IMG/VR virus record: IMGVR_UViG_3300031673_000545
Location: 1 to 21,860 of that record
Reading direction: 5' to 3' (one strand)
DNA length: 21,860 nt
Origin: a virus
A program made the translations under genes and the position numbers. Shown piece after piece: positions 1-11,297 of this stretch (its first letter is position 1; each line of letters opens with the position of its first letter). The notes beneath the pieces are model-generated. The model did no database searches and had not been told where the DNA came from. It saw only the letters and a list, made by a program, of their open reading frames with translations.

Positions 1-218
1 TCATGTAGCTTGGACTCAGCGAAGTCTAATGTTACATTAGTAAGGTCATTTACATCAGCATTGTATTCCTTATCTTCTTTTAGCCATCTGTAATGAGTGT
101 TACGAGATATACCGACCGACTTACATGCAGTGGTTACGATTCCCAGTGAAGATTCGAGTGCTTTGAGCATGCTCTTTTTTAGGTTGTCACTATTGTCACT
201 TGCCGCTTCTGTATTCAT
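1..218 (-). CDS. Helix-turn-helix protein, candidate terminase small subunit (N-terminal part)
   Basis: The gene starts at 218 and runs off the left edge, so only the first 72 residues are seen. After a short polar N-terminus the protein has a helix-turn-helix of the kind found in phage small terminase subunits (motif TACKSVGISRNTHYRWLKED). It is followed by acidic, helical sequence. Its ATG overlaps the stop of the kinase gene by four bases (ATGA), so the two are probably translationally coupled. A small terminase subunit would bind packaging sites and recruit the large subunit, which would be expected just outside the window. A DNA-binding regulator is the main alternative. The helix-turn-helix is seen; the terminase role is inferred from phage context. 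Confidence 0.6.
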   Translation of the reverse strand, partial: MNTEAASDNSDNLKKSMLKALESSLGIVTTACKSVGISRNTHYRWLKEDKEYNADVNDLTNVTLDFAESKLH

Positions 219-709
219 AGCTTATTTATTATTGCACTTATGTAGTTTAAGGCCTCTTCCGAGCCAGCAACCTCAATGTGTGCTGTTATGTTATTGTTCC
301 TTGTAGCCATCCTTTTAAGGTGCTGTTCTGTTTGTTTGCTTTCCCTTCTTTGTCTTCCGTTTGAACCATCTCCAGTAATCTTAATTATAAAAGGACTGCA
401 GGAGTGTTCTATTACTTTAGTATTCATAAATCTATCGCCTTCTAAAATTACGTATTTGTCATTCATTTCAGCAATAAATCTGTCATAATCTTTCATTACT
501 GCTCGAGAAAGTCGGTCCGTACCTTGAAACATTGTGCCATCATATTTGCCGACCGCCACTACATTAGATGAAGAATGAACATAAATTGTTCCGTATTTCA
601 TTCTTTTTAGGCATTTAAATTGCTTGATTATTGAAGTCAACACCCAAGTCTTTCCAGTGCCGGGATTACCTATTAAAAGTATTACTATGGGTTGTTGAGG
701 TTGTCTCAT
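215..709 (-). CDS. P-loop kinase, probable 5-hydroxymethyluracil DNA kinase-like
   Basis: This 164-residue P-loop NTPase has a Walker A motif at residues 14-21 (GNPGTGKT) close to the start. A GKYDGTMFQGTDRLS segment lies at about 54-68, and a Walker B-like strand VILEGDRF at 87-94. The compact size, the GTD segment and the ExGDR strand resemble the phage kinases that phosphorylate 5-hydroxymethyldeoxyuridine in DNA. That phosphate activates the hydroxymethyl group for displacement by an amino acid. The gene overlaps the transferase gene (706..1593) by four bases, and this pairing is the known arrangement in thymine hypermodification loci. The P-loop kinase fold is clear. The DNA substrate is inferred from neighbours and family likeness. 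A generic nucleotide kinase is the main alternative. Confidence 0.75.
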   Translation of the reverse strand: MRQPQQPIVILLIGNPGTGKTWVLTSIIKQFKCLKRMKYGTIYVHSSSNVVAVGKYDGTMFQGTDRLSRAVMKDYDRFIAEMNDKYVILEGDRFMNTKVIEHSCSPFIIKITGDGSNGRQRRESKQTEQHLKRMATRNNNITAHIEVAGSEEALNYISAIINKL

Positions 710-1593
710 TGTTTAAGCTCATTTAGTAGGTTATGGTTATACGTTTCCTTTCGAAATTCCCATAAGGGAGTCCAATCTACTCCGTCTTTAATTAAATTGC
801 TCATTTGTTGTATTTCCGAGCCTGCACGATCAATATAGTAGCCGATGTACCTTTTACCTAACCTCCACTTCTTGTATGCACATAGAGTAGTCTCAATATT
901 CCAAATGTTTTTGTGTTCAATATCAAGACCTCTGATGTGCTCTTTAATTACAGAAAACTTTGATTGAAGGAGCTCCATCTGTTCATTGTTTAGCTTATTA
1001 TCGTTTCTGTGTGTGTTCAGCGCATTTAAACCGAATGCGAGTGCTACACCATTACGACATGACTCAGCGTCCTTTAAAACGAGCGTAGATGGCTCTAGCG
1101 GAAGCTCAGTTAGTACGTAAAGCATCTCTAAATATATAAATAGGGTAAATCTACCAAAAGTGTATATTTGTTCAGCAACCTTATACACATTATCGTATGT
1201 TTGGTCAGTGGAGTCAGCAACTAGACTAAGAAAGAACTCATGTTGTTTTTTAGTCCCTATTAATTCCTTGTAAGAAACGAAAGATTGAACAAACTGATTT
1301 GATGATTTCACTCTCCTTCTGTCTGTTTGAAAGATTACCAGATTCTTTTTACTTTCCCACCATTTCTGGAGCCTATTTAGATCTACATTTTCGTAGTCTG
1401 GAAATTCATTGTAAATATAGTATGCAGACGTTGCCGAGTACGTTGAAGCATATAGGAAGGCTAGCCAGTATCTTTGCTCAATATTCAAATCAAATCTATC
1501 AGCAATATATATAAGCGTATCATTAGCAGGGTCAATGTCCCTAATAGCTGAGCTTCGTATATGGTATTCGTAATATTTTGTCAGATTATCCAT
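706..1593 (-). CDS. Amino acid:DNA transferase-like protein (ADDT / aGPT-Pplase family)
   Basis: This is a 295-residue, mostly alpha-helical protein. Its features match the phage family predicted as alpha-glutamyl/putrescinyl-thymine pyrophosphorylases and later renamed amino acid:DNA transferases. They are an aromatic helix LAFLYASTYSATSAYYIYNE at about 44-63, then DYENVDLNRLQKWW (66-79), a TDRRR basic turn (90-94), YTFGRF (144-149), ESCRNG (177-182) and GYYIDRAGSEI (251-261). Members replace the pyrophosphate or phosphate on an activated hydroxymethyluracil with an amino acid or amine, working on intact DNA after replication. The gene sits between a GNAT gene (13-base overlap) and the kinase gene (4-base overlap), so it is part of one operon. 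The amino acid donor cannot be predicted. Assignment is from remembered family motifs, not a search. Confidence 0.75.
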   Translation of the reverse strand: MDNLTKYYEYHIRSSAIRDIDPANDTLIYIADRFDLNIEQRYWLAFLYASTYSATSAYYIYNEFPDYENVDLNRLQKWWESKKNLVIFQTDRRRVKSSNQFVQSFVSYKELIGTKKQHEFFLSLVADSTDQTYDNVYKVAEQIYTFGRFTLFIYLEMLYVLTELPLEPSTLVLKDAESCRNGVALAFGLNALNTHRNDNKLNNEQMELLQSKFSVIKEHIRGLDIEHKNIWNIETTLCAYKKWRLGKRYIGYYIDRAGSEIQQMSNLIKDGVDWTPLWEFRKETYNHNLLNELKQ

Positions 1594-2024
1594 ATGTTTT
1601 GCTTTACCCCTTTTGACCTAGTGTAATTAATTCCTTTGAGCTTCATACCGACTTTCTCGTAAAATTGATTAGCAGGTTTATTATCGCAGTTACATTTCAA
1701 TACGAGCTGTTTACCTTCCCTATGCGCCTTACTTTTGATTGCTTCAACTATTAGCCTCCCTACTCCCTTTTTTTTGTGATTAGCTAGTACACCCACATCA
1801 TTTATCACATAGCAATTTTTCCGGATCGAGTAAGAATAATTACACATCGCTATAGGCTCTTCCCCTTCCACTATTATAAATTTGTTAGGTCCTTTACCAG
1901 CAAGGAAGTTATCCCAGATTTGATACAGATTAAAACTGCCTATATGCTCTTTCTCCTGCTTGTATATGGCTTTTAGAACATCTACATCAAGATAATTTGC
2001 CGACCTTATTCTGTAATTTTCCAT
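1581..2024 (-). CDS. GNAT-family N-acetyltransferase
   Basis: This 147-residue protein is a complete single GNAT domain. Motif A, which binds the acetyl-CoA pyrophosphate, is visible as NDVGVLANHKKKGVGRL (75-91) with the R/Q-x-x-G-x-G pattern. The C-terminal motif B is NKPANQFYEKVGM (115-127), which closes the cofactor pocket. It lies between the amidotransferase and transferase genes with 19- and 13-base overlaps. Acetyltransferases are known tailoring enzymes of phage thymine hypermodification, acylating the amine of the installed amino acid, so this is the likely role. Acetylation of a small molecule or protein cannot be excluded. The fold is secure and the substrate is inferred. Confidence 0.85.
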   Translation of the reverse strand: MENYRIRSANYLDVDVLKAIYKQEKEHIGSFNLYQIWDNFLAGKGPNKFIIVEGEEPIAMCNYSYSIRKNCYVINDVGVLANHKKKGVGRLIVEAIKSKAHREGKQLVLKCNCDNKPANQFYEKVGMKLKGINYTRSKGVKQNIWII

Positions 2025-2644
2025 TGTAATAACTTATTACTTTTTATTGGAACTGGAGCGACATCACCCAGTGCACGAATGAAAATATCTTTAGTTGAAG
2101 CAAAAAATATAGCATCTTGGTCTTGAAAGAGCCACAATGGTCGATAACCATTTGTCATAGCATATAACCGAATATCATTTTTAATAGACTTGATTATTAA
2201 ACCAGAATATGAACCATGTTCTTTAATTATCTGCAGTATACTTTCTGGGTTGCATTCAGATTTGCGGAGCAATACTTCACCATCGTTATCCGAGTCAATT
2301 TTTACACCCCATGCTATTTCCATTTCACTCTTTGTGCGCATATCAATAACACCATTAAATACCATAGTTGTATCACCAATTTGTATAGGCTGATTATTTT
2401 TGTGGTCCCGAAAATCACCAGAAGTGGAATATCGATTATGAAAAATCAATGCATTGGAAAGTGGTATTTGTATCTTGGAAAATTCGTTTTGGAAGTATTT
2501 TGAAGTATGTATTTCGCCATTTTTTACATACGATAAACCGAAGGAGTGAAGGCCTCTAATTCTAGATTGTTTGATTAATTTAAATATTTTAAATCTATCT
2601 TTTTCGCATGGTTTTGAACTAATATATCCTACAATTCCGCACAT
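2006..2644 (-). CDS. Standalone class II glutamine amidotransferase domain protein
   Basis: This 212-residue protein is an N-terminal-nucleophile glutaminase domain with nothing attached. The start was placed at 2644 because it yields MCGIVGY. Removal of the methionine then exposes the catalytic cysteine, as required in this family; a start nine bases earlier would bury it. Other family marks are HNRYSTSG (about 69-76, glutamine-binding arginine), FNGVID (96-101, oxyanion asparagine and glycine) and the acidic DSDNDGE at about 117-123. Such domains hydrolyse glutamine and channel ammonia to a partner, usually a fused synthetase. Here no synthetase domain is present, so the acceptor must be a separate protein, perhaps in the DNA modification pathway. 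The fold is clear; the partner is unknown. Confidence 0.85.
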   Translation of the reverse strand: MCGIVGYISSKPCEKDRFKIFKLIKQSRIRGLHSFGLSYVKNGEIHTSKYFQNEFSKIQIPLSNALIFHNRYSTSGDFRDHKNNQPIQIGDTTMVFNGVIDMRTKSEMEIAWGVKIDSDNDGEVLLRKSECNPESILQIIKEHGSYSGLIIKSIKNDIRLYAMTNGYRPLWLFQDQDAIFFASTKDIFIRALGDVAPVPIKSNKLLQWKITE

Positions 2645-2670
2645 GTTAAGCAATTTTCAAATAATTTTTG

Positions 2671-2790
2671 CCTCTTTGGTAGCCTTGTGGTAGATAGCGT
2701 TTTGCACATCGCAATTTTTTAATAGCCATATACCTTAGAACAAAGAAAGTCCCTCTAAAGGCCTCTATTTGCCTCTCACGATGTTTTGTG
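2671..2790 (-). repeat. Intergenic regulatory element, copy A (pairs with 14841..14960)
   Basis: This copy aligns without gaps to 14841..14960, with about 79 of 120 bases identical by hand count. Two blocks are best conserved. One holds three 10-bp direct repeats at 2751, 2761 and 2771 (plus-strand form sCTCTawwtg). The other is TTTGGTAG...TAGATAGC at 2675-2698. It fills the gap between the dioxygenase stop and the amidotransferase start, ending 27 bases before that start. The conserved 47-base spacing between the two blocks suggests protein binding on a fixed face of the helix. It is probably a promoter or operator region, but no clear Bacteroidota -7 box was found inside it. Confidence 0.7.
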
Positions 2791-2806
2791 TATTTTTGTA
2801 AATACC

Positions 2807-3610
2807 TCATTTTTGTACGTCAATTTCATCGTATTTGAACGCTTTAAGAGGATAAAATACAAGGCTATTTCTGTAACCACCAAGGGCAGTTGGAACTATA
2901 TTTGTAACCCCATGCAATGACTTCCAAGCAGGATAAACCAACATTGAAAAATCGCCAGAATGAAAAACTGCATCATAGTCCGGAACTGATAAATCGCCTC
3001 CGTATGAATTTTCCCTTCTTGATAAAATCACATTAACCCCTAACAGATTTGCAGTGTCCCTATGGTAAGCTGCAGCAATGTTAAAATTAGAGATAGAGCT
3101 AGTCCATAATTCTCCAAATCGCCATTCCTTTGGTACGTTATCCTCAATAAGTTTAATTTGTTCGGCATAGATAGTAGGAGTAATTTTTTTAATAAGTTCA
3201 CCGCATTCTAGAGCTAATATCCACATACTTTTAACAAATATTTCTGCTGTTTTGACATTGTGAACAGAGCTTCTTGTTGGATATGGTCGCCTCATATGTG
3301 GCTTAGGTGGAACGCTTCCAATAATTGTTGAGTATTGTTCGACTCCTTGACCTCCTTCCCTTCTTGCTAACATTGCAGATGAACGTGTCATTATAGACTT
3401 TGGAACTCTTTTTGACCTAAATTCTCTATTTGCAATTGCGAGAAATTTAGCCAGCTTATCAGAATGTTGACGAACATCACGAATATAAAAACCGATTTCT
3501 ACACCACTTTCAATTAGTATGCAGTCCTCGGTAATATTAGGCCTTATATCGCCTAGCTTATCACCTACTTTGCAGTTGTGTTCGACTTTTATTAATTCAA
3601 CTTTTTCCAT
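2807..3610 (-). CDS. TET/JBP-family 2-oxoglutarate/Fe(II) dioxygenase
   Basis: This 267-residue protein has a C-terminal double-stranded beta-helix oxygenase core. The iron ligands are visible as the HxD pair H183/D185 (YHRDTANLLGVNVI) and the distal H233 (SLHGVTNIV). The 2-oxoglutarate-binding arginine is R247 (GGYRNSLVFYPL). The SYGGDLSVPDYDAV strand-loop (202-215) between them is typical of phage TET/JBP proteins. Family members hydroxylate the 5-methyl group of thymine (JBP) or 5-methylcytosine (TET) in DNA, using oxygen and 2-oxoglutarate. The gene overlaps the ParB-like gene by 14 bases. No DNA methyltransferase gene is visible here, which favours thymine as substrate, but this is inference. 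Residues 1-160 match nothing I can name. Confidence 0.85.
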   Translation of the reverse strand: MEKVELIKVEHNCKVGDKLGDIRPNITEDCILIESGVEIGFYIRDVRQHSDKLAKFLAIANREFRSKRVPKSIMTRSSAMLARREGGQGVEQYSTIIGSVPPKPHMRRPYPTRSSVHNVKTAEIFVKSMWILALECGELIKKITPTIYAEQIKLIEDNVPKEWRFGELWTSSISNFNIAAAYHRDTANLLGVNVILSRRENSYGGDLSVPDYDAVFHSGDFSMLVYPAWKSLHGVTNIVPTALGGYRNSLVFYPLKAFKYDEIDVQK

Positions 3611-4166
3611 CTGCCTGCTTTATTTTATTGAGCTCATTTAGAAATTCGCCACCAATGTAAATATCTTTATCTCGGCATTCTTTTTCCAGCTTCTTGGCTA
3701 GAACATAGTGAGAGTTAATTATTTTTATTTGAATAGCTTTCTTTACTCCATCGTGCAGGCCATCAAGTGCATCTGCGTAATCAAGGACATCAAGTTCAGA
3801 ATAGTCAATAGGATCTCTGCCGAGCCACTTATCTATCATATTTAAGTCCCAGCTAAATTCTAAAACGTCCCAGTCCCAATCTCCATAGCTCAGATTGTCT
3901 TTGACCATTAATTCCATTTCTTGAGCTTCGGTGAAATCTATTTCTTTTACTAGAATCTCATTAAAGCCTAATGATTTGCAAGCTAAATACCTCATATTAC
4001 CGCAAAGTATTTGCCCTTTTTTATTAATTACAATTGGCCTTAATTCGAGCATTTCCGGAAATTCTTGAATACTTTCTTTAAGGTATTTAAATTTGTATTC
4101 ATCAATGGATCTTGGATTCGCTTCGTGTGTTGTTAAACTAGATATTTTTACTTTTTTAATTTCCAT
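3597..4166 (-). CDS. ParB/sulfiredoxin-fold protein 1
   Basis: This 189-residue protein has a ParB/Srx N-terminal domain. Visible marks are NPRSIDEYKFKYLKESI (17-33), LRPIVINKKGQILCGNMRYLA (42-62) with the GNMR nucleotide-binding box at 56-59, and VKDNLSYGDWDWDVL (88-102). It lacks the helix-turn-helix and dimer domains of chromosomal ParB, and no ParA is nearby, so plasmid partition is unlikely. Phage proteins of this type are often found beside DNA-modification genes and may be nucleases or nucleotide-dependent switches. It is paralogous to the next gene upstream, whose 3' end it overlaps by 11 bases, and it overlaps the dioxygenase start by 14 bases. The fold is clear; its function here is unknown. 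Confidence 0.85.
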   Translation of the reverse strand: MEIKKVKISSLTTHEANPRSIDEYKFKYLKESIQEFPEMLELRPIVINKKGQILCGNMRYLACKSLGFNEILVKEIDFTEAQEMELMVKDNLSYGDWDWDVLEFSWDLNMIDKWLGRDPIDYSELDVLDYADALDGLHDGVKKAIQIKIINSHYVLAKKLEKECRDKDIYIGGEFLNELNKIKQADGKS

Positions 4167-4788
4167 TTTGCAGAGCTTTGGTCATTGCCTTAATTAATAT
4201 TTCTCCTATATCGTATTGTTTGGACTTCATGAAGGTTACAAGGCTATTAGCTTCGTCGTAATCGTCTATATGAAATTCAAGTTGTATAACTTTTTTACCT
4301 TCCTCATAGGACTTGTCTGAGCCTTCTGGAGCGTCCTCGGATAAGTCTAAGCTATTTATATCCGTTTGGTCTTCTTCTTCCGCACTCCATGTATTATGCT
4401 CATCTGGTTGCCAAACGTTCATTCCCCAGTCGGAGAGCTTATTTTCATCGAATGAATTTGCCAGTTTATCCCAGTCCCATTGACCATAATTGGCATTGTC
4501 CTTAATGATAAATTCTTTTTTTTGGTCCTCTGTAAGTCCCTTTACTATCTTAACATTGAGCTCTTTCAAACCAGCTTCCAAGCAGGCTTTGTATCGCATA
4601 TTTCCTCCCAGAATCATCAGAGCTTCATCAACTATTATTTCCCGAATACTCAGCATTTCTGGAAAGTCCTTTATTGATTGAACCAATTTTTTAAATTTGT
4701 CTTGACGAATAGTTCGTGGGTTGTTAATATTTGAAACTATCTCGGAGGCCTTTATTAACCTTTCTTCGACCTTTATTACATTAACCAT
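4156..4788 (-). CDS. ParB/sulfiredoxin-fold protein 2
   Basis: This 210-residue paralogue of the 3597..4166 product has the same domain: NNPRTIRQDKFKKLVQSI (22-39), MILGGNMRYKA (58-68) and IKDNANYGQWDWDKLA (95-110). The GGNMR box corresponds to the nucleotide-binding GxxR motif of ParB/Srx proteins. After about residue 115 an acidic linker (DEHNTWSAEEEDQTD) leads to a C-terminal region distantly like that of protein 1 (KKVIQLEFHIDDYDEANSL). Two diverged copies side by side suggest a heterodimer or a divided task. No ParB helix-turn-helix is present. It overlaps the small membrane-protein gene by 13 bases and belongs to the same operon. Confidence 0.85.
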   Translation of the reverse strand: MVNVIKVEERLIKASEIVSNINNPRTIRQDKFKKLVQSIKDFPEMLSIREIIVDEALMILGGNMRYKACLEAGLKELNVKIVKGLTEDQKKEFIIKDNANYGQWDWDKLANSFDENKLSDWGMNVWQPDEHNTWSAEEEDQTDINSLDLSEDAPEGSDKSYEEGKKVIQLEFHIDDYDEANSLVTFMKSKQYDIGEILIKAMTKALQNGN

Positions 4789-7507: not shown

Positions 7508-8016
7508 TAATTAAGTTGTTTTAGTTGTTCATTACTTAGAGAAAACTTTGATTTCAACGTCTCTACATCGTATGTTCCATCTTCGATTGCTTTTAATGCA
7601 GCCTTAAATCGAGCATCTGAAATCTTGGGTAATGCTGCTTTCAGTTGTTCGCCTGCAGCGTCTGTGTCCGCATCAGTCACCAACCCAAGAATTGCGGATA
7701 ATTGGTACCTCTTGCAGTAACTAATGGCTGACCCCAGAACTTGAAAGTCATTCATTCCCTTGAGTACAACTCCCTGCGGAATATCCATAGTCGTCTCGAT
7801 TGCTTGACCAGTCTCAACGTGATAGATTGCAGTTGTTAACTGATAAGAGCCTACTAACTGGGTAAAACCGAGTTTGTGCTTCTGCATTAATGGGTTAATC
7901 ACTGATAAAATTGCAGGTAGGTCCGCATACTTGTACCCATAACCTGCAGTACCTTTAAAGATAGCAGGTACTTCCTGCTGAAAATCGGCCAGAGCCTTTG
8001 CTAATTGTTTGTCCAT
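7507..8016 (-). CDS. erf: ERF-family single-strand annealing protein
   Basis: This 169-residue protein has the ERF pattern: GYGYKYADLPAILSVINPLM (25-44), MQKHKLGFTQ (44-53), then GSAISYCKRYQLSAILGL (95-112), which corresponds to the family's Tyr-x-x-Arg-Tyr block, and an acidic DADTDAAGE (115-123). ERF proteins form rings that anneal complementary single strands and promote recombination or genome circularisation. The length is typical of the core, with a short helical C-terminal tail. It overlaps the exonuclease gene by one base, giving a standard exonuclease-annealase pair with the SSB-like gene beyond. Confidence 0.9.
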   Translation of the reverse strand: MDKQLAKALADFQQEVPAIFKGTAGYGYKYADLPAILSVINPLMQKHKLGFTQLVGSYQLTTAIYHVETGQAIETTMDIPQGVVLKGMNDFQVLGSAISYCKRYQLSAILGLVTDADTDAAGEQLKAALPKISDARFKAALKAIEDGTYDVETLKSKFSLSNEQLKQLN

Positions 8017-8022
8017 AGCTAT

Positions 8023-8571
8023 TTATTTATTTTGGTTAATACATGTTTGTTTGATACCTATTTTAGCCTCTTTTATGGTATCGGCCACGAATAATGCGTG
8101 ACCCTTTGAGTTAACAACTAATACAAGGCCAGTTGCTGACCTTACAAGATAATACAATTTTCCGTTATAATCAAGCGAAGCGAAGGAGCTATATTTACTC
8201 GGAGTTTTATAGTTGCAAACCAGTTCGGACGTGTCGAATGTTTTTACTTGACCTCGAATGTACAATTCATCTAGCATTATTTTAGCGTCTTTCTTTCGCA
8301 TTTGCTTGCCAGTTTTTAACGAGAAAACATCTATCAGCACCCAGTCAATTCCACATGACATTCTATGCCCTTTATCGCCTTTATACATTATGCAATATGG
8401 AGTGTTGTTATGCATAACCTCAAACACCATTACCCAATGGCTATCTGAGTATTCTACAATCTTCTTTACATGACCTTCCACAAGGCCTAGTGCTGCAGTT
8501 TCATCTAGCAAGTTCCACACCTTTACGGAGCGTGATACTGCTCTTAATTGTTTCATTTGTTCAATCTTCAT
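8023..8571 (-). CDS. Conserved phage-type protein of unknown function
   Basis: This 182-residue soluble protein has no motif I recognise. It shows alternating hydrophobic strands (HWVMVFEVMHNNTPYCIMY, KLYYLVRSATGLVLVVNSKGHALFVA) suggesting a beta-rich fold. It sits between the RadC-like gene and the ERF gene with only short gaps, so it belongs to the recombination group. Six spread-out cysteines and histidines do not form an obvious metal site. The start at 8571 follows an A-rich leader typical of this region. Confidence 0.7.
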   Translation of the reverse strand: MKIEQMKQLRAVSRSVKVWNLLDETAALGLVEGHVKKIVEYSDSHWVMVFEVMHNNTPYCIMYKGDKGHRMSCGIDWVLIDVFSLKTGKQMRKKDAKIMLDELYIRGQVKTFDTSELVCNYKTPSKYSSFASLDYNGKLYYLVRSATGLVLVVNSKGHALFVADTIKEAKIGIKQTCINQNK

Positions 8572-8580
8572 ATCTTAAGT

Positions 8581-9015
8581 TTAGAGCAGGCCTTCGTCTG
8601 CGAATGAATAAAAGTTTTCTGATGTGATAATCAAGTGGTCAAGCAGGGCAATATCTAATATTTTGCCAGCCTCTTTAATTTTATTAGTTATAGCCTTGTC
8701 TGGCTCAGAAGGTTTAAGGCTTCCAGAAGGATGATTGTGTGCCAGTATAATGCTAGACGCAGTACAATTCAATGCAATGGTAAATATTACTTTAGCATCT
8801 ACTATTGAAGCAGTTGTTCCACCAGAGGAAATCTTAAAGTAGCCTAACACATGATTCTGTCTGTTTAAGCATAACATTATTACCTCTTCCTTCCATTGTA
8901 TTTGGTCTTTGTCAAACAATTCCTTAAATAATTCTGCAGCCTCTGCGGATGAAGATATCTTATAAACCTTCTCAGAAGGCTCAATACTTACTTTTATTTT
9001 TATTTCTGGTAGCAT
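8581..9015 (-). CDS. RadC-like JAB/MPN domain protein
   Basis: This 144-residue protein consists of the JAB/MPN domain of RadC. The metal-binding motif is complete: E44, then AHNHPSGSLKPSEPD (92-106), giving H93, H95 and D106. LDHLIIT (125-131) is the usual closing strand. The N-terminal helix-hairpin-helix of chromosomal RadC is missing, as in most phage and mobile-element versions. The fold is that of metal-dependent isopeptidases or hydrolases. The biological role of RadC is still unsettled, and a DNA repair role is not well supported. It is encoded beside the recombination genes and two bases from the next gene upstream. Confidence 0.9.
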   Translation of the reverse strand: MLPEIKIKVSIEPSEKVYKISSSAEAAELFKELFDKDQIQWKEEVIMLCLNRQNHVLGYFKISSGGTTASIVDAKVIFTIALNCTASSIILAHNHPSGSLKPSEPDKAITNKIKEAGKILDIALLDHLIITSENFYSFADEGLL

Positions 9016-9016
9016 A

Positions 9017-9367
9017 CTATTGTTTTTTAGCGTTCGTTAATTTATCGGCCTTTCTATTAGCAGGGTGCGTACTCTGGTTAGAGTAGTTGATAAACCCTTT
9101 CAGACGTTTCTCAATAAACTCACCTGCTTTATCTTTATTCCGAAGGAAGATTGATTGACTGAGTAACTTGCCATCAACTACATAATTGAAGGCTACAAAT
9201 CGGTCATAAAACTTTCGACTGATTTCTAATGAAGCGAGCTCGTGTGAGTTTTGAGGACTGGAGCCTACATACGTTACTTGTTTCACGTTATTCATTCCTC
9301 CCCACGAAGGTGACTGCTTATAGCCACATGAAGTGACGTCATTCCAGATTGCTTTACTATATCCCAT
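9017..9367 (-). CDS. Protein of unknown function
   Basis: This 116-residue protein starts at 9367 (MGYSKAIWNDV), directly after a TTTAAAACAGAAAAA leader of the type used by its neighbours. An ATG 30 bases upstream lies inside the preceding gene and was rejected. Strand-like segments (NVKQVTYVG, FVAFNYVVDGKLLSQSIFL) are followed by a basic tail (RLKGFINYSN, ANRKADKLTNAKKQ) that could contact nucleic acid. It ends one base before the RadC-like ATG codon region, so the two are probably co-translated. No family is recognised. Confidence 0.65.
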   Translation of the reverse strand: MGYSKAIWNDVTSCGYKQSPSWGGMNNVKQVTYVGSSPQNSHELASLEISRKFYDRFVAFNYVVDGKLLSQSIFLRNKDKAGEFIEKRLKGFINYSNQSTHPANRKADKLTNAKKQ

Positions 9368-9384
9368 TTTTTTCTGTTTTAAAT

Positions 9385-9762
9385 TTATAAATACCATTTA
9401 AGCTCATTAATACTCAATATTACAGCTTTCATACGGAGCTCCGAGGCCTTATTGGAAGCTGCCAGAGAGCTACGACCAATTTCCATACCTAAGTAGTATT
9501 GTACAAGGCCTTCGTAAAGGCTCTTAAAAATATCATATTCATACACTGGTAAACCTGCTTCCTCATCGTTCTGTTGCTTACGCTCCATTGAGCAGGCAAA
9601 GTCTTCCATAATTGCGATACGCTGATTCAGTAAATACATATCGTCAAGGTAACCCCATTCGTAAGAGTGAAGGAAGTTCTTATCTACTTTCTTTTGAACT
9701 AACTCTAATTCGTCGTTCAATAGACTTACTTTTTTGGTAACGTTAAAAATCATTGAGTTCAT
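9385..9762 (-). CDS. Helical protein of unknown function
   Basis: This 125-residue protein is predicted by eye to be almost all helix, with heptad-like stretches near the N-terminus (VSLLNDELELVQKKVDKNFL) and in the middle (LLNQRIAIMEDFACSMERKQQND). The start follows a copy of the AAAACAGAAAA leader. A second ATG three codons in is possible. The hairpin at 9782-9804 lies just upstream and may limit read-through into this gene. No family is recognised. Confidence 0.65.
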   Translation of the reverse strand: MNSMIFNVTKKVSLLNDELELVQKKVDKNFLHSYEWGYLDDMYLLNQRIAIMEDFACSMERKQQNDEEAGLPVYEYDIFKSLYEGLVQYYLGMEIGRSSLAASNKASELRMKAVILSINELKWYL

Positions 9763-9781
9763 ATTTTCTGTTTTTTATAAA

Positions 9782-9804
9782 GGGAGCGACCAATGACCGC
9801 CCCC
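9782..9804 (-). terminator. Terminator-like hairpin after 9813..10145
   Basis: On the minus strand GGGGGCG (9804-9798) can pair with CGCTCCC (9788-9782), with one G-U pair and a 9-base loop, followed by TTTAT. It lies between the stop at 9813 and the start at 9762. The weak T-tail suggests an attenuator or a processing site. Confidence 0.45.
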
Positions 9805-9812
9805 AGATTAAT

Positions 9813-10145
9813 TTATAGTTGAGTGATTAATTGAATCAATTCAAGTTTGTAAATCTTTTCGCACTCAAATAGATTATCAAGGTCTGCTCTGTTTTGCGTC
9901 TTCTCCTTACCTTTCAAGCCAACACCTTGACTACTTACTTTAAGTGACCTTCTGTTAATTCTAATAACTTCTTCCAGCAGGGTTAACGCTTTAATATTTT
10001 TCAACCTAGTATGCTGAGTACCCTCATCAGTGTTAATCACTTCTGTAATTCTGGAGAGCAATACGTCCTTAAATTTAATCTCAAGGATATCGTTAAACTC
10101 ATCAGCACTCATGTTGTTCACTTCGTCAATGTTTAAATTTTCCAT
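9813..10145 (-). CDS. Protein of unknown function
   Basis: This 110-residue helical protein has an acidic N-terminus (NLNIDEVNNMSADEFNDILE) and a central basic helix (RLKNIKALTLLEEVIRINRRSLKVSS), ending in an amphipathic helix (LFECEKIYKLELIQLITQL). The start follows an AAAAAACAGAAAATATG leader like those of its neighbours. No enzymatic motif, membrane segment or known family is visible. Confidence 0.65.
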   Translation of the reverse strand: MENLNIDEVNNMSADEFNDILEIKFKDVLLSRITEVINTDEGTQHTRLKNIKALTLLEEVIRINRRSLKVSSQGVGLKGKEKTQNRADLDNLFECEKIYKLELIQLITQL

Positions 10146-10177
10146 ATTTTCTGTTTTTTGTTTTAATCTCTATGTCC

Positions 10178-10384
10178 TTAATTTTTTAATATCTTATTAT
10201 TTAAATGCTCAATTACATTTTCTATTTCTTCTTTTTCTACATAATCAAAAACACCAAATTTAAAACCAGTTTCCTCAAAAACTAACTTAACATAATTATG
10301 TGCTTCATCATAACTATAACCCTCATTAAATACGTGTCTTTTACACTCATCAATCTTTGCTCCTAATTTTAAAAATAATGTCAT
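10178..10384 (-). CDS. Small protein of unknown function
   Basis: This 68-residue, mixed-charge soluble protein contains HVFNEGYSYDEAHNYVKLVFEE, which reads as helix-turn-helix-like pairs without a recognisable DNA-binding motif. It starts after a TAACAATTAAAAACAAGGAA leader, close to that of the next three genes upstream. Base composition is more AT-rich than the neighbours. It is likely real because of the leader and spacing, but no function can be given. Confidence 0.6.
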   Translation of the reverse strand: MTLFLKLGAKIDECKRHVFNEGYSYDEAHNYVKLVFEETGFKFGVFDYVEKEEIENVIEHLNNKILKN

Positions 10385-10444
10385 AATTCCTTGTTTTTAA
10401 TTGTTAATGCAGTTGGTCGGAACCTGCTCCCCGTTTTTGGTTAA

Positions 10445-10693
10445 TTACAATTCAATAATTTCGTCTAATTTTTGTTCAATTTCCCAGAAGAGTTGTTTAA
10501 TTTCATCAGTAAAACCATCTAGCTCATCAGTCTTTTCCTCGAATTCTTGACCTCGTTCTGACTCTTGCCATTTGTCTGTTCTTTCAGAAAATTGGTCTTG
10601 TCTGTCTGTAACAATTTCTTCCAGTTGTTCAGTCATTTCGTCTTGAAGTTCTAGCAATGTTTTTCTTAGTTTTTCAATTGTACTTGCGTTCAT
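10445..10693 (-). CDS. Very acidic helical protein
   Basis: This 82-residue protein has about 26 acidic and 10 basic residues by hand count, so a net charge near -16. It reads as two long charged helices (KLRKTLLELQDEMTEQLEEI and FTDEIKQLFWEIEQKLDEII) joined by a polar segment. Coiled-coil pairing is plausible. Small acidic phage proteins sometimes mimic DNA and block host nucleases, but nothing specific supports that here. It starts behind the shared AACAATTAAAAACAAGAAA leader. Confidence 0.65.
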   Translation of the reverse strand: MNASTIEKLRKTLLELQDEMTEQLEEIVTDRQDQFSERTDKWQESERGQEFEEKTDELDGFTDEIKQLFWEIEQKLDEIIEL

Positions 10694-10705
10694 GTTTTCT
10701 TGTTT

Positions 10706-10831
10706 TTAATTGTTCATTAATTTAAAAATTCGTATTCTAAGTTCAATACATTTTTGGTTTTTAAAACCATGCAACTCACACATTAACTGGTGCTGAGTTT
10801 TCAACTTCTCTATTCTGTTTACTTTAGTCAT
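10706..10831 (-). CDS. 41-residue peptide of unknown function
   Basis: A short gene starts with MTKVNRIEKLKTQHQLMCEL and ends KLMNN. Its ATG at 10831 directly follows a full copy of the leader (TAACAATTAAAAACAGAAAA), the same placement as for its neighbours, which is the main reason to call it. The peptide is basic, contains two cysteines and has no known relatives. Its stop codon lies within the leader of the next gene (start 10693), 12 bases before that ATG. Confidence 0.6.
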   Translation of the reverse strand: MTKVNRIEKLKTQHQLMCELHGFKNQKCIELRIRIFKLMNN

Positions 10832-10849
10832 TTTTTCTGTTTTTAATTG

Positions 10850-11065
10850 TTAATACCACATTTCGAACTCAAGTCCGCTTGACCTTAACTCGAACTCTAG
10901 GTCCGGGATCATCCAGTCTTCTACTTTGATAATAAATGTTTCGCTGAAGGCTAAACCCTCTTTGCGTAAACCAAGCCTTGTTAATAATTCTGCTCCGAGC
11001 TTCAAATCTCTTAAGCTAAAGGTGATTTCAAGTGTTTGAATAGTTTCTGGGTTATACATTTCCAT
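10850..11065 (-). CDS. Small protein of unknown function, first gene after the structured leader
   Basis: This 71-residue acidic protein (MEMYNPETIQTLEITFSLRD) has alternating hydrophobics that suggest a small alpha/beta fold. It is the first gene after the 352-base gap and its promoter. The ATG at 11065 follows the leader TAACAATTAAAAACAGAAATA. An in-frame ATG two codons later is possible. No family is recognised. Confidence 0.65.
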   Translation of the reverse strand: MEMYNPETIQTLEITFSLRDLKLGAELLTRLGLRKEGLAFSETFIIKVEDWMIPDLEFELRSSGLEFEMWY

Positions 11066-11297
11066 TATTTCTGTTTTTAATTGTTAGTCCCCCACTTCCA
11101 GACTCGACTGGATATGCATTCTGAGTGTAGTAGGGCTGGAGCACCTCGTAGAAAACATAGCGTTTTCCCCTCCTAACCATTGGCAACCGACGTTAATTTT
11201 ACTCACCCCCACCCCTCCACAACCATCGAAAACATAGAGCTTTCGATACCTGCTTCTCGGATGAGATAGCTTTCAGACTGACGTATTTTTCAAAGAA
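11066..11297 (-). promoter_or_regulatory. Long structured 5' leader of the small-gene operon
   Basis: About 230 bases lie between the predicted transcription start and the ATG at 11065 with no gene on either strand. Three hairpins are visible: ATCGAAA/TTTCGAT with a 9-base loop (11225-11247), GAAAAC/GTTTTC with a 5-base loop (11151-11167) and TCCAG/CTGGA (11097-11112). The first two share GAAAACATAG, so they are related in sequence as well as shape. Composition is less AT-rich than nearby gaps, including C-rich runs at 11203-11216. It could be a cis-acting RNA, a small RNA or a protein-binding region. Confidence 0.45.

Follow-up and report, generated by a model that had tools for sequence, protein, structure and literature searches.

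The stretch analysed here (the window) is a linear IMG/VR virus record of 21,860 bases, IMGVR_UViG_3300031673_000545, which is probably a fragment and whose genes lie almost throughout on the minus strand. Between positions 215 and 4788, seven co-directional minus-strand open reading frames (ORFs) encode two proteins of the ParB/Srx fold, a TET/JBP-type dioxygenase, a free-standing class II glutamine amidotransferase (GAT), a GNAT acyltransferase, an amino acid:DNA transferase (ADDT) and a small P-loop kinase. A preliminary description had read these genes as a base hypermodification pathway in a Bacteroidota-type phage. All seven ORFs are present as it described them, and the Pfam and fold assignments of the ADDT, in the company of the TET protein, bear out a base hypermodification cassette. 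We consider it highly probable that the TET, kinase and ADDT proteins together hypermodify thymine. The free GAT, locked to the ADDT, is a new part of such a cassette and is absent from the thymine-modification pathways that have been studied.

The ADDT matches the Pfam model PF18724 (ADDT) with an E-value of 8e-25 (88.3 bits; cut-off 26.2) and also exceeds the cut-off of PF18746 (aGPT-Pplase3; 4e-8). This profile comparison and the fold match that follows uphold the assignment first proposed for this gene. An AlphaFold (AF2) model built with 44 relatives had a pLDDT of 95.6, and when the PDB was searched with it the only significant matches were 8z2n and 8z2m (E-values of 1e-3 to 2e-3, probability 1.00, TM score about 0.6). 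These structures are gp46 (PUGT) of phage PaMx11, a 5-phosphomethyl-deoxyuridine (5-PmdU) glycinyltransferase. Among predicted viral proteins, the model matches the ADDTs of LilMcDreamy, Fortunato and Salmonella phage 38. Its invariant residues follow the pattern DxDP, W, Y, G and ETxxC, and the core motif (D19, P22, W43, Y52, G147, E234, T235, C238) is common to the M6, PaMx11 and ViI-like enzymes. Sequence searches of the PDB with the ADDT, the GNAT and the GAT found nothing, and the fold search alone succeeded. A direct profile comparison of the ADDT with the M6 and PaMx11 enzymes alone was weak (probability 7%, E-value 0.005) and aligned on the ET..C motif.

The dioxygenase matches phrog_6059 with an E-value of 4e-48; the label of that family, 'queuine tRNA-ribosyltransferase', under which TET/JBP proteins are annotated, was rejected as a misnomer. 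The iron and 2-oxoglutarate residues noticed in the preliminary description are indeed intact, for the HxD...H triad (H183, D185, H233) and the 2-oxoglutarate-binding arginine (R247) are invariant in ten relatives. At least three divergent types of TET/JBP protein fill the oxidase slot across loci, namely that of the window, a more canonical one (Tet_JBP E-values of 1e-27 to 1e-29, L004-L006) and a third (1.5e-12, L028); the Tet_JBP cut-off is exceeded by several relatives of the window's type and by the other types found in this slot. In the tree of ADDTs, the type seen in the window falls in two separate supported lineages with other types between them; the number of changes is rough, as the 'TETc' labels of L095 and L066 rest on partial or weak matches. 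Among the cassette contigs of at least 20 kb (window included), all of them partial, Tet_JBP was found in 26 of 26 and a thymidylate-synthase-fold (TS-fold) hydroxymethylase in none of the 26. The same searches gave the opposite result for M6 and PaMx11, where the TS-fold enzyme is present and TET/JBP is absent. In these cassettes, TET replaces the TS-like step. Because of this reciprocal distribution thymine in DNA is favoured as the substrate, and the hydroxymethyl group probably originates from oxidation by TET/JBP, the first step that had been proposed. ParB together with the window's TET type also occurs near packaging genes in L009 (7064-9355), L010 and L011 (Cyanophage MED4-117, 8662-11109). 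No ADDT, GAT or kinase matches were found in these three loci, which are possibly a simple oxidation-only system; in MED4-117 an FkbM-like methyltransferase gene sits between ParB and TET.

The GAT exceeds the Pfam cut-offs for GATase_6 (7.4e-11) and GATase_7 (2.5e-8), and no synthase domain was found in the protein. Its start is placed at the ATG at 2644 (MCGIVGYI), correcting a TTG at 2653, because the relatives begin with MCG and class II enzymes require a cysteine at position 2. Cys2, R71, N97-G98 and D121 are conserved in the relatives. Profile scans of IMG/VR retrieved 127 relatives with the ADDT and 119 with the GAT, and 80 ADDT loci were kept. The GAT is present in 79 of the 79 ADDT loci in which its place was sequenced, where it adjoins the ADDT directly or with only the GNAT gene between. 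TET/JBP is similarly present wherever there is room for it (74/74). The kinase was found by profile in 74 of the 80 loci, and the other six are of the type of L090, a separate ADDT lineage with the order ParB, kinase, often a GNAT-like protein, GAT, ADDT, TET. These loci keep TET and GAT, with kinase and GNAT from other families; a different P-loop protein was read out in all four examined (L090, L091, L093, L096). Despite the permuted order, their GAT gene overlaps that of the ADDT by 10 bases. A weakly GNAT-like protein of 212 residues replaces the GNAT in this permuted cassette (L090 4757-5392, L093, L096). The association is thus near-obligate, and the linkage of GAT and ADDT is the one link that is never broken. 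A fused GAT-ADDT protein was looked for and none was found.

The small kinase has a model of the P-loop nucleotide kinase fold (pLDDT 91.9) and carries the shared signature of these enzymes (Walker A, GxY, DR/DK, EG), with Walker A kept in 75 of 75 relatives. It matches phrog_800 (2.2e-8), a family that also contains M6 gp54, the PF18748 5-hydroxymethyldeoxyuridine (5-hmdU) kinase. In hhalign comparisons it matched the M6 and PaMx11 kinases with an E-value of 4.6e-8 (probability 95) and a wider set of phage kinases including that of Tonitrus with an E-value of 4e-34. The phrog_800 label 'terminase small subunit' was rejected as a misnomer. The same annotation stands on the kinases of M6, PaMx11 and Cr30 (L017 16686-17249, L019 24218-24787 and L014 7989-8534).

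The GNAT protein, an optional part, matches Acetyltransf_1 (3.1e-12); a profile search detected it in 58 of the 79 relatives that have a GAT. The ParB-fold proteins score just under the curated cut-off of ParB_N (3.4e-5 for protein 1, 1.9e-5 for protein 2). Protein 1 matches phrog_498, phrog_620 and phrog_940 (5e-22 to 2e-23) and is 45-50% identical to its counterparts in L001, L003 and L008; protein 2 matches phrog_620 (4.8e-21) and is 51-52% identical in relatives.

The layout of the cassette is given in Table 1. Adjacent genes overlap by 11 bases (ParB/ParB), 14 (ParB/TET), 19 (GAT/GNAT), 13 (GNAT/ADDT), 4 (ADDT/kinase) and 4 (kinase/next gene), leaving a single gap of 162 bases, between TET and GAT. 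The arrangement is non-random, because relatives retrieved by sequence alone have the same gene order. The helix-turn-helix (HTH) neighbour also adjoins the cassette in relatives and marks its position ahead of the packaging genes.

Table 1. Features of the cassette in the window, with stretches of interest in Caulobacter phage Cr30.
Feature	Position	Strand	Length	Remark
ParB/Srx-fold protein 1	4156..4788	-	210 aa	
ParB/Srx-fold protein 2	3597..4166	-	189 aa	
TET/JBP-type 2-oxoglutarate-Fe(II) dioxygenase	2807..3610	-	267 aa	type 'TETa'
TET-GAT spacer	2645..2806	-		probably non-coding
Free-standing class II glutamine amidotransferase (GAT)	2006..2644	-	212 aa	
GNAT acyltransferase	1581..2024	-	147 aa	optional part
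Amino acid:DNA transferase (ADDT/aGPT-Pplase family)	706..1593	-	295 aa	
Small P-loop kinase	215..709	-	164 aa	
Terminase-small-subunit-like HTH protein	3..218	-		phrog_4044 4.8e-6; runs off contig
Cr30 (L014) stretches	265-786, 2871-3518, 7989-8534			side observation

A TET-GAT spacer of about 150-180 bases also occurs in close relatives of the window (63% mean column identity over 8 relatives). It is partly conserved (AAAACGC...CCAAAGGGGTAAAAA) in the window's clade (window, L001, L003, L008, L020, L024) and is perhaps a promoter or an RNA element; an Rfam scan of the window gave no matches. A 54-residue ORF in the spacer, starting on the TET stop, was dropped because its reading frame is not conserved in relatives.

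The host is likely to belong to the Bacteroidota, in agreement with the phage type first suggested. A search of 84,980 species genomes gave a single match, a Prevotella metagenome-assembled genome (MAG) with the order ParB-ParB-GAT-ADDT-kinase-GNAT followed by a radical-SAM protein (L145 3881-9124), in which GAT and ADDT are again adjacent. Relatives of the window's exonuclease occur in Leeuwenhoekiella, Riemerella and Flavobacterium phages, and also in many Acinetobacter phages, and DUF3127 and DUF6291 occur.

It was of interest to compare the cassette with systems described before. PaMx11, which makes 5-aminomethyl-deoxyuridine (5-NmdU) and its acetyl form with gp46-gp51, has the same ADDT fold, a GNAT and a small P-loop kinase in adjacent genes. 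It differs in having a TS-fold enzyme, an FAD oxidoreductase and, at the position of HMUDK_hel, an extra protein following the kinase; the present cassette instead has TET/JBP and the free GAT. The PaMx11 row runs ADDT, FAD oxidoreductase, GNAT, kinase, and the GAT therefore appears to stand in for the flavoenzyme. According to the title of its PDB entry, the PaMx11 ADDT puts glycine on 5-PmdU; a flavin-dependent reaction, reportedly described by Lee et al. and Wen et al., then trims it. A tRNA analogue is known in which glycine is added and the flavin reaction of MnmC trims it to aminomethyl (PMC9626948). Phage M6 has the ADDT and P-loop kinase step in common with the cassette but employs a TS-fold hydroxymethylase and HMUDK_hel, with genes annotated as threonine dehydratase and DNA repair photolyase separating the ADDT from the kinase; its cluster as annotated includes neither TET nor a free GAT. 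Predicted thymine hypermodification genes have been reported in Rhodococcus phage Tonitrus (PMC11955845). As in the window, Tonitrus and related actinophages carry ParB, TET/JBP, ADDT (aGPT-Pplase2) and P-loop kinase in one run. The combination of TET, ADDT and kinase is therefore already known and not new. Tonitrus differs from the window in having no annotated glutamine amidotransferase, an ADDT with an identity of about 21-23% and a kinase that clearly belongs to PF18751. A literature search found no paper describing the exact gene set, although Iyer et al. 2013 may already have mentioned it. Within 9 kb, the cultured Caulobacter phage Cr30 carries an 'SNF2' protein with a TET-like stretch, a match to the ADDT and a related kinase, which makes this phage an accessible test system.

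From this comparison the following route may be proposed. The TET/JBP enzyme would hydroxylate thymine in the phage DNA at its methyl group, giving 5-hydroxymethyluracil, with the ParB-fold proteins probably targeting or loading the enzymes on DNA. The kinase would then phosphorylate the hydroxyl to give 5-PmdU, in which the ADDT would replace the phosphate with a nitrogen nucleophile. Class II glutamine amidotransferases produce ammonia for a partner enzyme. The GAT would accordingly hydrolyse glutamine and hand ammonia to the ADDT, forming 5-aminomethyl-deoxyuridine in one step and bypassing the glycine transfer and flavin-dependent trimming of PaMx11. Where present, the GNAT would acetylate the amine, and the modified base may serve against restriction. 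Taken as a full model, post-replicative thymine hypermodification with a GAT-fed ADDT seems to us rather more probable than otherwise, and we regard the role of the GAT as ammonia donor to the ADDT as evenly balanced. The fully specified version, an ammonia-channelling pair that converts 5-PmdU and glutamine ammonia to 5-aminomethyl-deoxyuridine, wholly post-replicatively from ordinary thymine, is put forward tentatively.

Several observations weigh against this proposal. It draws on sequence and predicted structure, and all of the cassette contigs are partial. The window's own dioxygenase scores 1.3e-6 (28.2 bits) against Tet_JBP, below the Pfam cut-off of 34.9. There is no Tet_JBP match in the entire Prevotella MAG despite its GAT, ADDT and kinase, and the hydroxymethyl group may arise there in another way. 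PF18748 is not among the 25 families listed for the window's kinase, while M6 gp54 scores 7.7e-18. The helical partner HMUDK_hel (PF18723) was not found in the window or in six cassette or TET relatives, on partial contigs; the same search does find it in Vibrio phage 144E46.1. We therefore call the protein kinase-like by distant similarity only, since no curated 5-hmdU kinase model passed and the helical partner is missing. The Walker motifs noticed in the preliminary description stand, and the protein is recognised by phrog_800 and by profile-profile comparison but not by PF18748 or PF18723. Finally, all of the characterised ADDT members known to us use an amino acid, and acceptance of ammonia by the present enzyme is a predicted activity.

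This last point bears on a different reading of the same core, in which the ADDT transfers an amino acid such as glycine or glutamate, the GAT amidates the carboxylate of the adduct or supplies glutamate, and the GNAT acylates the adduct. The closest solved structure to the ADDT is a glycinyltransferase, and its core motif is that of the M6, PaMx11 and ViI-like enzymes. Amidation, however, requires activation by ATP, and Pfam searches of the seven ORFs revealed no ATP-dependent ligase, synthase domain or other amide-forming enzyme. Glutamate is abundant in cells, so that a dedicated supplier would be odd, and known loci with TET and ADDT, such as Tonitrus, manage without a GAT. We consider this reading rather unlikely. 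The amino acid transfer followed by amidation that the preliminary description envisaged is accordingly weakened in its second part, amidation looking less likely than the proposed ammonia supply because the cassette lacks an ATP-dependent amide-forming enzyme.

Two other possibilities concern the target. 5-Methylcytosine is the substrate of some phage TET enzymes, and 5-hydroxymethylcytosine made by such oxidation might be what the kinase and ADDT build on. Of the 26 GAT/ADDT contigs, 3 have a match to a C5-methyltransferase, but none was found on the other 23, which include the window and are partial. The structure-backed substrate of the ADDT family is 5-PmdU, and TET occupies the role of the TS-like deoxyuridine monophosphate hydroxymethylase, so that modification of cytosine appears improbable. 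In Methylophilales phage Melnitz (L013 4010-10453) a relative of the window's kinase lies between an HhaI-like methylase and a 2-oxoglutarate-Fe oxygenase; this arrangement counts in favour of a cytosine route, and the locus is perhaps the cytosine counterpart of the cassette. The genes might instead serve to modify proteins or surfaces, as a set of the PaP3 kind and not a base-modification pathway, since matches to the GAT in annotated phage records (25-29% identity among the best matches listed) include GAT-II/amidoligase loci, which share the class II domain. The PaP3 locus differs in its amidoligase partners, in a GAT that is part of a protein of 517 residues and in a neighbourhood that, as far as shown, has neither ADDT nor TET. 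No amidoligase, ATP-grasp or cyclotransferase gene is present in the cassette, where TET, ADDT and kinase constantly accompany the GAT, and we give this explanation very little credence.

If thymine hypermodification with a GAT-fed ADDT is correct, these phages would hypermodify thymine without altering the nucleotide pool, TET making the handle in DNA already synthesised and glutamine giving the nitrogen. Uncultured phages commonly carry the cassette, with about 120 contigs in IMG/VR for each of the two markers, yet the GAT is 25-29% identical to the best annotated matches listed, and many phage genomes may therefore carry an unexamined base. Should the ADDT accept ammonia, it would also provide a compact enzyme tool for placing a reactive amine on thymine in DNA.

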